A stretch of 64,000 nt of DNA from assembly GCF_014274465.1 (NCBI RefSeq), contig NZ_CP060394.1, positions 4,712,001 through 4,776,000 on the forward strand, given 5' to 3'. A program made the translations under genes and the position numbers. Positions 51,381 to 59,588 of this stretch are shown piece by piece. The notes below the pieces were generated by a model. It ran no database searches and was not told where the DNA came from. It saw only the letters and a program-made list of their open reading frames with translations. The stretch's first letter is position 1. Each line of letters begins with the position of its first letter. The DNA comes from Alloacidobacterium dinghuense (GTDB taxonomy: Bacteria > Acidobacteriota > Terriglobia > Terriglobales > Acidobacteriaceae).

Positions 51381-52681
51381 TGTTCAGTGCCATGACATGC
51401 TTTCCAGGATGTTTCTAGTCATCCTTTACACTCCCTGCGCGAGCGAAGCGAGAGCAGGGAGTGAGACTGAGGATGCCTTGGAAGACGATGGACGTGCGGG
51501 AACAGCGGGTGCGGTTTGTGGTGGCGGCGTTGCGCCGTGAGCGGAGCTTGAGCAGCTTATGCCGGGAGTTTGGCATCTCGCGTCCAACTGGGCGGCTGTG
51601 GGTCGAGCGCTATCGGGCTGGCGGGGTGGAAGCCATCGCGGAACGCAGCCGACGCCCCCTGCACAGTCCACAGCAGACCGCGCCGGAGGTGGAAGGGCGT
51701 GTGATCGAGCTACGCCTCCGCTATCCCGACTGGGGTGCGCGCAAACTGCAGGTATTGCTCGAGCAATGCGGGACACGTTTGCCCGCAAGCACCATCCATC
51801 GCATTCTGCTGCGCCATCAACTGGTGCGCCCCGAGGACCGGCATCGCCCCGCGCCCAGGCGCTTCGAGCGGGCCGCGCCCAACGAGCTGTGGCAGATGGA
51901 TTTCAAGGGTCCCAAGTCGTGGCACCAGCCGATCGGACCGCTTTCCATCCTGGATGATCACAGCCGTTATGTGATCGCGCTGGAGGCGGTGGGCAGCACC
52001 CAGGCCGAGCCGGTCCGTGTGCGGCTGGAGCATGCCTTTCAAGAGTGCGGTCTGCCCGAGGCCATGCTGATGGATCACGGCGTGCCCTGGTGGAGTTGGG
52101 CCGGACCACAGGCGGCGACGACAGGACTGGCGCTGTGGCTGATCAAACAGGGCATACGCCTCTGCTGGAGCGGCATCGGGCATCCGCAGACGCAAGGCAA
52201 GGTGGAGCGCTTTCACGGCGCGCTGGAACGCGCGCTCACCCGGCGTGGACTGCGTGGCCACGCGCCCCAGCAGTGGCTGGACCGCTATCGCTGGGAGCAC
52301 AACCATCTGCGTCCGCACGAAGCCCTGGGCATGCAGACTCCAGCCAGCCGCTGGCGCCCCAGTGAGCGGCGCTACGATCCCAACCCGCCGCGCTGGCAGT
52401 ACCCCGAGGGAGCCTGGGTACTGAAGGTCGACTGTCAAGGCAAGCTGGAGATCGCCGATACCAAGTGGCGCATCGGTCGCGCTCTGGCCGGTGAATGGGT
52501 GCAGATCCTCCCTGTCGAACAGCGGCTCCAGGTCTATTACTGCAACACCCTGATCCGGGAACTCGATCCCGCCATCCAACGCTCGACGATCGTCGAGCGT
52601 TGGATACCAGCTCAAAACCCTCGACCCTAACTGGAAAGAATGTCCAGAGACAAACTGCAAACGATGTCGTGTAACTTGACA
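51381..52681 (+). mobile_element. IS481-family insertion sequence, copy 1
   Basis: 1301 bp, identical by eye to 55720-57020. Ends start TGTTCAGTGCCATGACAT (left) and TGTCAAGTTACACGACAT (right, complement), as in the IS481 family (5'-TGT). Instead of a direct target duplication, the left flank is AAAAGAA (51374-51380) and the right TTCTTTT (52682-52688), which are reverse complements. Both continue as arms of the R1 hairpin (CAAGCC, GGCTTG). The flanks therefore seem to come from two differently oriented sites. Confidence 0.9.
51473..52630 (+). CDS. IS481-family transposase (copy 1)
   Basis: 385 residues. HTH of the IS481/Tn7-TnsB type (RVRFVVAALRRERSLSSLCR, FGISRPTGRLWVERYRAGG), then the rve DDE core: first Asp in LWQMDFKG, second in MLMDHGVPW and Glu in HPQTQGKVERFH. 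C-terminal beta barrel ends in WIPAQNPRP. I prefer ATG 51473; a GTG at 51461 is also in frame. Upstream, inverted ACTCCCTGC/GCAGGGAGT could limit expression. All catalytic residues are intact. Confidence 0.93.
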   Translation: MPWKTMDVREQRVRFVVAALRRERSLSSLCREFGISRPTGRLWVERYRAGGVEAIAERSRRPLHSPQQTAPEVEGRVIELRLRYPDWGARKLQVLLEQCGTRLPASTIHRILLRHQLVRPEDRHRPAPRRFERAAPNELWQMDFKGPKSWHQPIGPLSILDDHSRYVIALEAVGSTQAEPVRVRLEHAFQECGLPEAMLMDHGVPWWSWAGPQAATTGLALWLIKQGIRLCWSGIGHPQTQGKVERFHGALERALTRRGLRGHAPQQWLDRYRWEHNHLRPHEALGMQTPASRWRPSERRYDPNPPRWQYPEGAWVLKVDCQGKLEIADTKWRIGRALAGEWVQILPVEQRLQVYYCNTLIRELDPAIQRSTIVERWIPAQNPRP

Positions 52682-55691: not shown

Positions 55692-55719
55692 GCCGGGTGC
55701 CCCATTCAAGCCTTCTTTT
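55692..55719 (+). repeat. R1 hairpin, left arm beside IS copy 2
   Basis: GCCGGGTGCCCCATTCAAGCC then the loop bases TTCTTTT, ending exactly at the IS. With 57021-57040 on the other side (TTCTTTTGGCTTGAGTGGGG) it reconstructs an uninterrupted R1 hairpin like 59376-59412. Confidence 0.8.
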
Positions 55720-57020
55720 TGTTCAGTGCCATGACATGCTTTCCAGGATGTTTCTAGTCATCCTTTACACTCCCTGCGCGAGCGAAGCGAGAGCAGGGAG
55801 TGAGACTGAGGATGCCTTGGAAGACGATGGACGTGCGGGAACAGCGGGTGCGGTTTGTGGTGGCGGCGTTGCGCCGTGAGCGGAGCTTGAGCAGCTTATG
55901 CCGGGAGTTTGGCATCTCGCGTCCAACTGGGCGGCTGTGGGTCGAGCGCTATCGGGCTGGCGGGGTGGAAGCCATCGCGGAACGCAGCCGACGCCCCCTG
56001 CACAGTCCACAGCAGACCGCGCCGGAGGTGGAAGGGCGTGTGATCGAGCTACGCCTCCGCTATCCCGACTGGGGTGCGCGCAAACTGCAGGTATTGCTCG
56101 AGCAATGCGGGACACGTTTGCCCGCAAGCACCATCCATCGCATTCTGCTGCGCCATCAACTGGTGCGCCCCGAGGACCGGCATCGCCCCGCGCCCAGGCG
56201 CTTCGAGCGGGCCGCGCCCAACGAGCTGTGGCAGATGGATTTCAAGGGTCCCAAGTCGTGGCACCAGCCGATCGGACCGCTTTCCATCCTGGATGATCAC
56301 AGCCGTTATGTGATCGCGCTGGAGGCGGTGGGCAGCACCCAGGCCGAGCCGGTCCGTGTGCGGCTGGAGCATGCCTTTCAAGAGTGCGGTCTGCCCGAGG
56401 CCATGCTGATGGATCACGGCGTGCCCTGGTGGAGTTGGGCCGGACCACAGGCGGCGACGACAGGACTGGCGCTGTGGCTGATCAAACAGGGCATACGCCT
56501 CTGCTGGAGCGGCATCGGGCATCCGCAGACGCAAGGCAAGGTGGAGCGCTTTCACGGCGCGCTGGAACGCGCGCTCACCCGGCGTGGACTGCGTGGCCAC
56601 GCGCCCCAGCAGTGGCTGGACCGCTATCGCTGGGAGCACAACCATCTGCGTCCGCACGAAGCCCTGGGCATGCAGACTCCAGCCAGCCGCTGGCGCCCCA
56701 GTGAGCGGCGCTACGATCCCAACCCGCCGCGCTGGCAGTACCCCGAGGGAGCCTGGGTACTGAAGGTCGACTGTCAAGGCAAGCTGGAGATCGCCGATAC
56801 CAAGTGGCGCATCGGTCGCGCTCTGGCCGGTGAATGGGTGCAGATCCTCCCTGTCGAACAGCGGCTCCAGGTCTATTACTGCAACACCCTGATCCGGGAA
56901 CTCGATCCCGCCATCCAACGCTCGACGATCGTCGAGCGTTGGATACCAGCTCAAAACCCTCGACCCTAACTGGAAAGAATGTCCAGAGACAAACTGCAAA
57001 CGATGTCGTGTAACTTGACA
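55720..57020 (+). mobile_element. IS481-family insertion sequence, copy 2
   Basis: 1301 bp, identical by eye to copy 1. It has a 7-bp direct repeat TTCTTTT at 55713-55719 and 57021-57027, so this copy is the product of simple transposition. The repeat equals the loop of the R1 hairpin, meaning the loop is the target. Confidence 0.92.
55812..56969 (+). CDS. IS481-family transposase (copy 2)
   Basis: 385 residues, protein identical to the copy at 51473, with HTH, DDE core and C-terminal barrel. Identity of two copies 4.3 kb apart points to recent transposition. Confidence 0.93.
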   Translation: MPWKTMDVREQRVRFVVAALRRERSLSSLCREFGISRPTGRLWVERYRAGGVEAIAERSRRPLHSPQQTAPEVEGRVIELRLRYPDWGARKLQVLLEQCGTRLPASTIHRILLRHQLVRPEDRHRPAPRRFERAAPNELWQMDFKGPKSWHQPIGPLSILDDHSRYVIALEAVGSTQAEPVRVRLEHAFQECGLPEAMLMDHGVPWWSWAGPQAATTGLALWLIKQGIRLCWSGIGHPQTQGKVERFHGALERALTRRGLRGHAPQQWLDRYRWEHNHLRPHEALGMQTPASRWRPSERRYDPNPPRWQYPEGAWVLKVDCQGKLEIADTKWRIGRALAGEWVQILPVEQRLQVYYCNTLIRELDPAIQRSTIVERWIPAQNPRP

Positions 57021-57261
57021 TTCTTTTGGCTTGAGTGGGGTATCGGTGTCCTCTGGCCAGCCCTAAGGTTGCAAAGGGGCTCACCGAAGAAAAAGGATTC
57101 CGGCAAGAGTTCTCGTTCTTATTGACAGACCAAAATCATCGCTTCATAATCGGTCACCTCTCCCCTAATTGATCGTCTCCCCCACAATCGGGTGCTCCCG
57201 CTTTCGACCACGTGATTCGTAAAGGGTCCTGAACATCGCCACGACAACAGGAAAGGGAATC

Positions 57262-59375: not shown

Positions 59376-59588
59376 GCCGGGTGCCCCTTCAAGCCTTCTT
59401 TTGGCTTGGGTGGGTAGATTAGCTCGCTGGCAGTGTCGATCCTTCAGAAAAGCAAAAATTATCAAAACAAAAAGAGGCGCAAAGCGCCTTCAGGTAGAAG
59501 CCGGGGACTTTAGTCTCCGGAATAAACCGTCGCCGCAGGCGACCGCCTCACTGCCGTAGGCGGGAGTGGAGGCAAAGCCGAAACGGCT
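59376..59588 (+). repeat. R1 interspersed multi-hairpin repeat, complete copy
   Basis: About 213 bp. A 5' hairpin CAAGCC-TTCTTTT-GGCTTG (59390-59408), extended by CCC/GGG-type pairs, is uninterrupted. Downstream are CCGGGGACT/AGTCTCCGG (one mismatch), GTCGCC-GCA-GGCGAC and CCTCACTGCC/GGCGGGAGTGGAGG stems. It lies in the 232-bp gap between convergent genes. The 5' hairpin is an empty site for the IS481 element. Confidence 0.75.

Follow-up and report, generated by a model that had tools for sequence, protein, structure and literature searches.

Several families of insertion sequences (ISs) include members that insert into the stem-loops of chromosomal repeats. In its accessible parts, the 2006 survey by Tobes and Pareja assigns REP-targeting elements to the IS3, IS110, IS4, IS256 and IS5 families (PMC1525189), as the first-pass annotation of this locus had stated without naming them, and those parts contain no occurrence of the name IS481. 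Furthermore, among the titles and abstract beginnings of the openly licensed literature, no description of hairpin or REP targeting by IS481 elements was found, which is consistent with the view of that annotation that this is not a described habit of the family.

Within the IS481 family, a CTAG target is not required of all members, and the Bordetella IS481 belongs to the classic group. This classic group (Bordetella IS481, ISRe46/TnRErm46) targets CTAG, whereas most sites of the clade described here lie in hairpins. For instance, the available text on ISRe46 gives CTAG as its target, with duplication of NCTAGN (PMC6794481). Our analysis indicates that there is very probably a clade of IS481 elements with long transposases in which the transposase picks short REP-like palindromic repeats as its target.

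Element A and its target hairpin

The window, i.e. the whole stretch of 64,000 nucleotides that was analysed, carries two copies of an element that we call A. The copy studied here (1,301 bp, ends TGTTCAGTG...AACTTGACA) is bordered by TTCTTTT direct repeats, outside which lie the two arms of a hairpin, R1 (Table 1). Taking away the element and one repeat restores CAAGCC-TTCTTTT-GGCTTG, the duplicated bases being exactly the 7-nt loop, and an intact, empty copy of this hairpin, CAAGCCTTCTTTTGGCTTG, is found 2.4 kb away. The first-pass annotation had described the same arrangement, namely an IS481-type element whose duplicated bases are the hairpin loop and whose removal rebuilds the intact copy, and its coordinates all proved right.

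Table 1. Positions in the window of element A, its target hairpin and related features
Feature	Position	Strand	Basis or remark
L003, the other window copy of element A, in an R1 hairpin	51381-52681	+	loops AAAAGAA / TTCTTTT, without direct repeat
Left arm of target hairpin, CCCCATTCAAGCC	55700-55712		flank reading and stem test
Target duplication copy 1, loop TTCTTTT	55713-55719		flank reading
Element A, IS481-family IS, 1301 bp, four identical copies in the genome	55720-57020	+	DNA search, family model, end-finding
Transposase gene, 389 aa, GTG start	55800-56969	+	ORF, profile matches, predicted structure
Perfect palindrome, 14-bp stem, near the 3' end of the transposase gene	56913-56944		
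Target duplication copy 2, loop TTCTTTT	57021-57027		flank reading
Right arm of target hairpin, GGCTTGAGTGGGG	57028-57040		flank reading and stem test
Unoccupied intact R1 hairpin with outer arms	59384-59414		CAAGCC-TTCTTTT-GGCTTG core at 59390-59408

The assignment to IS481 is confirmed by the transposase, which scores 245.4 bits against model NF033577 (curated cut-off 224), and by the other traits of the family: a single ORF, imperfect terminal inverted repeats with TGT...ACA ends and a direct target repeat. Passing NF033577 and having TGT...ACA-type ends are shared with the classic group. An in-frame ATG at 55815 is another possible start of the transposase. The integrase core is recognised by an rve match, and D147, D205 and E249, which are invariant in 46 aligned proteins, are in our reading the putative DDE catalytic triad. 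In the predicted structure (mean pLDDT 87), six N-terminal helices are followed by the integrase core and then by a beta-rich C-terminal domain (about 319-377); the N-terminus matches HTH models. Beyond the integrase-core match, the protein of the classic member from the same genome ends after 29 aa, versus 95 aa for the element A protein. Since the classic protein ends sooner, the CTAG group apparently lacks the beta-rich domain, and one guess prompted by this difference is that the domain might read the target.

Two side observations concern sequences in and around these elements. The palindrome with the 14-bp stem is also present at 52574-52605, and similar ones lie near the end of two relatives (L079 and L095). 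The sequences past two R1 hairpins (59409-59560 and the right flank of L003) look alike by eye and end in CCGGAATAAA; R1 may therefore be part of a longer intergenic repeat.

Insertion sites of copies and relatives

In the own genome, a single contig of 6.27 Mb, a DNA search detected A four times, in identical copies, and a related element, B, likewise four times; A and B share 69% DNA identity. All eight copies sit in R1-type hairpins (CAAGCC-loop-GGCTTG), each inserted at a position that is fixed to the base with respect to the arms. The arms are exactly CAAGCC and GGCTTG in seven of the eight; the right arm of L001 is imperfect (AGCTTG). Exact 7-bp loop duplications are found in two of the four A copies (TTCTTTT in L002 and AAAAGAA in L001). 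This length is a trait of A: element B duplicates CC-loop-GG in three of its four copies, i.e. 10 bp over a 6-nt loop (L005) or 11 bp over a 7-nt loop (L006 and L007), which suggests that the arms set the cuts. No ORF of at least 100 aa runs into the border at six of the eight copies; one does so at L001 and at L006.

The other two A copies, L003 and L004 (G000:C1:4651138-4652438), have no direct repeat as they stand. Swapping their right flanks makes the loop bases match in 7/7 and 6/7 positions. Since the two copies are in opposite orientation and 112 kb apart, a recombination inversion between them is the simplest reading, and the flank exchange is best explained by such a 112-kb inversion. 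A point against it is that the present arms have 2 and 1 mismatches, whereas the exchanged arms have 3 and 2. The remaining B copy, L008 (G000:C1:5846422-5847716), has matching arms and border repeats, CCTGGTTTTGG and CCTTCTTTTGG, that differ at two bases; gene conversion is our guess for this mismatch. The transposase gene of L008 is split into two reading frames. Elsewhere, two empty R1 hairpins, one A copy and one B copy occur within about 11.5 kb (G000:C1:5843001-5860000, L286).

Only 14 uninterrupted perfect CAAGCC-N3-12-GGCTTG dyads are present in the 6.27 Mb. Four of them have R1-like flanks, and a fifth empty R1 hairpin has three mismatches; about 13 R1 hairpins were recognised in this genome, 8 occupied and about 5 empty. 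Sampling 19 stretches of 20 kb (380 kb, stem score at least 10) gave 34 hairpins, about 89 per Mb, and none of these 34 is of R1 type. Two are CCCAGGTCTC...GAGACCTGGG and others are of CCCATCCTT type, and element relatives occupy both types elsewhere. Since A and B are all in R1 though other hairpin families are present, not just any hairpin is used, and any-hairpin targeting in this genome was rejected. Within the order, 73 of 298 genomes contain the pattern CCCANWCAAGCC-N5-9-GGCTTGWNTGGG as hairpins free of the element; the loops are highly diverse, and the outer arms show compensated changes among the places listed. The reversed-pattern control gave 0 among the matches listed. With regard to the criteria for REPs, R1 reaches up to 57 copies in related genomes, compared with about 13 recognised here.

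The same habit is found with a different hairpin in a related single-contig genome, G042, in which one element (53% aa identity) is present in 14 copies. Their borders read GCTnnAGC on the left in all 14 and on the right in 13 (L194 has GCTAAAAGC). Both arms are of GGCACGGCTnnAGCCGTGCC type in 13 copies, L189 having no left arm, and an exact 8-bp repeat is present in 8. At two sites (L191 and L192), the arms are changed yet still complementary. These counts leave aside L202-L206: L204 and L205 are G086 copies, represented by L171 and L070, and the other three are more distant.

Within the order, 28 of 397 genomes encode a relative of the transposase at E<=1e-60, and a search of species genomes from many phyla supplied the best 80 of 98 candidates encoding a relative. 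Among the matches listed, the closest named relatives are from Acidobacteriaceae and Terriglobia. In these loci and in those from a few fuller searches, element ends were assigned with a matrix that took no account of hairpins and had been trained on copies whose repeats span 5 bp or more. After merging of duplicates, 82 distinct two-ended sites from Acidobacteria, Proteobacteria and other phyla were kept; loci that lacked ends (37) or lay at contig edges (18) were dropped, both counts including repeats of the same place. Some of the dropped loci (such as L112 and L146) resemble hairpin sites.

A stem is rebuilt around the insertion at p<0.05 in 67 of the 82 sites and at p<0.01 in 59 (2,000 flank shuffles per site; with 300 shuffles, 68 reached p<0.05). 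This concerns 45/49 sites with at least 45% identity and 22/33 below 45%. By element, 45 of the 55 have a site at p<0.05; the combined per-element p is about 5e-66 if the 55 elements are treated as independent, an assumption that related elements do not fully satisfy. Moreover, stem scores of at least 8 are reached by 61 of the 82 sites, versus 5.1% of 2,575 swapped flank pairs. Since 11 of the 15 sites without a significant stem are among the 33 with less than 45% identity, the habit is weaker or lost toward the edge of the clade.

Where the stem is significant, exact duplications range from 4 to 11 bp, and a 7-bp loop as general rule was therefore rejected. Of the 39 sites that combine a significant stem with an exact repeat of 4 bp or more, 25 have the repeat centred precisely on the dyad and 14, which include the Bradyrhizobium sites, have it off centre. 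The group with repeats shorter than 4 bp comprises 34 sites, 33 of them without an exact repeat of at least 3 bp; the search was freer for this group and its null was treated equally. Three sites (L099, L102 and L111) have no direct repeat and have flanks that are mutually reverse-complementary up to the border, for which an inversion between copies or another insertion product are the suspected alternatives. The first-pass annotation had considered that its proposal would fail if most other copies had unrelated 7-bp duplications outside hairpins; most copies in the own genome, in G042 and in the clade lie in hairpins. Its proposal of the TTCTTTT loop of R1 as the target was borne out as far as R1 is concerned for A and B, and has to be widened for the relatives, which use other hairpin families with repeats of 4-11 bp.

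Plasmid copies were judged by eye in 14 of 50 matched records: five are in a hairpin, four are not and five have ends that could not be placed. Two of the hairpin copies (L287 and L293) may be one site in two strains. Sinorhizobium plasmid elements, one of them annotated as ISRm20 family, lie in ATCCCTGTG-CTCGT-CACAGGGAT with the 5-nt loop duplicated, and copies on Paraburkholderia and Neorhizobium plasmids are likewise in hairpins. For yagA of E. coli K-12 (ISEc19, L291), the end search did not find the right end.

Hairpin insertion is absent from the classic CTAG group. The own genome also encodes a classic IS481 of 323 aa in two copies (G000:C1:1336976-1337944 and 2155632-2156600), and its relatives from the same 397-genome search provided a control of 13 distinct two-ended sites, of which 0/13 reach p<0.05 in the stem test. 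In this small and partly degraded set, CTAG borders the element on the left in 8 sites, on the right in 6 and on both sides in 4, the rest being altered. None of the eight A and B copies has CTAG at its borders.

Hairpin class tends to follow the tree of the transposases. A quick tree was made of 55 clade members and 6 controls, and seven hairpin classes were assigned by hand to 41 of the 55 rows, the 14 'other' or 'none' rows being left out. Class changes 10 times on this tree, versus a shuffled mean of 26.8 and a minimum of 21 (1000 shuffles), and 6 times in a 26-row subset versus 15.3 shuffled (minimum 9). A hairpin address thus tends to be common to related transposases and is switched from time to time. 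In this tree, A and B are not sisters (supports 94 and 84), though R1 is the target of both. Two of the classes resemble, in our reading, the GTAG and CGTC REP super-families; Bradyrhizobium, C. crescentus and R. palustris are named as CGTC-positive in the accessible parts of PMC3733652.

How the hairpin may be recognised

In the simplest model, each arm would place one strand joining. The two element ends would be joined to opposite DNA strands, mostly at equal distances from the dyad centre, namely where stem meets loop for A and 2-3 bp into the stem for B and the G042 element. The loop would be duplicated as a result, and one arm would stay on each side. The transposase itself probably reads the arms, and the benefit for the element would be to land between genes.

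The palindrome could be read as ordinary duplex by a dimer on two half-sites, its folding being irrelevant, and we regard the chances of this being right or wrong as evenly balanced. Such a reading agrees with the sequence-family specificity of the targets, all sampled hairpins being non-R1 and A and B nevertheless being confined to R1, and with a helical N-terminus matching HTH models, as in dyad-binding proteins. It is less easily reconciled with the B duplication, which tracks loop length (10 versus 11 bp, in only three copies with exact repeats), or with loops free to vary and compensated arm changes tolerated, although half-site binding would still be compatible with all of these observations. 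It is possible, but rather doubtful, that the clade instead reads DNA secondary structure. The transposase would then dock on an extruded cruciform and join the two element ends to the two opposite hairpins, one end per hairpin, close to the stem-loop border, so that loop length would determine duplication length; changes in the transposase would re-address the element to other repeat hairpins, and the clade would have tracked host palindromes across several phyla.

Explanations without target choice by the transposase fare much worse. That insertion is random and that copies survive only in harmless extragenic repeats would fit the six own-genome copies with no ORF of at least 100 aa running into the border; it is very unlikely given that A and B insert to the base relative to the arms, that the other hairpin families of this genome hold 0/8 copies and that its CTAG-type IS481 lies outside hairpins. 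We consider it extremely unlikely that the arms are the outer inverted repeat of a larger mobile unit and the empty hairpins its excision footprints, even if most recognisable R1 hairpins of the own genome are occupied (8 versus about 5 empty): R1 hairpins, with their very varied loops, occur in 73/298 genomes and relatives of the element in 28/397 (overlapping, non-identical sets), and the loop in A or CC-loop-GG in B is directly duplicated in the copies given above. Arms and loops also differ between identical A copies, and the hairpin as a part of the element was therefore rejected. Finally, a chance likeness in a single copy has a practically negligible probability and was rejected on the eight copies out of eight, as well as on the combined p of the clade, which takes elements as independent.

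Target choice by the transposase, the reading that we prefer, makes hairpin targeting a trait of a clade, with CTAG relatives lacking it inside one IS family and even in one genome. It would explain the frequent intergenic position of such elements, as well as the common copies with exchanged flanks, which are a sign of inversion. Moreover, the clade offers a natural series of related transposases that differ in their heritable hairpin address, in which the residues that choose the target could be identified and in which it could be asked if folded DNA can be read by a DDE transposase.

Relation to known hairpin-targeting elements

The best solved relative of the A transposase is IstA of IS21, which matches nearly its whole length (8q4d, E 2.7e-14 with a sequence profile; 8b4h, E 2.7e-12 with Foldseek). 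IstA belongs to another IS family, with 14-16% identity and a TM of about 0.3-0.4, and 8q4d is its complex with IstB, whereas element A has no partner gene inside. Unlike IS481, IS110 elements use another transposase chemistry and RNA-guided targeting. Several of them (IS621, ISPa11, ISPpu9, ISPpu10 and ISRm19) are, like A, highly selective for REPs, according to the accessible parts of PMC1525189. The same parts describe IS1397/ISKpn1 and ISPsy8, of the IS3 family, which resemble A in having an rve DDE transposase and in inserting inside an extragenic palindromic repeat, and whose target specificity is ascribed to the transposase; IS3 transposases are usually encoded by two ORFs (PMC1525189), whereas A belongs to another family and has a single one. 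In ISRm22 of Sinorhizobium meliloti (IS4 family), as far as the accessible text goes, every copy is in a REP with the direct repeat inside the palindrome, as here, and some repeats are imperfect, which was attributed to recombination, as we suspect in our case (PMC1525189). ISRm22 differs by its transposase family and by its 6-bp repeats, versus 4-11 bp across this clade. Tobes and Pareja retained ISs with at least four copies, more than 45% of them REP-associated, and with insertion point and duplication inside the palindrome. Here, the association concerns 4/4 copies of A, 4/4 of B and, for both arms, 13/14 of the G042 element, and both the insertion point and the duplication lie inside the palindrome. 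IS481 can thus be added to the five IS families for which the 2006 list gives members with a repeat palindrome as their target.
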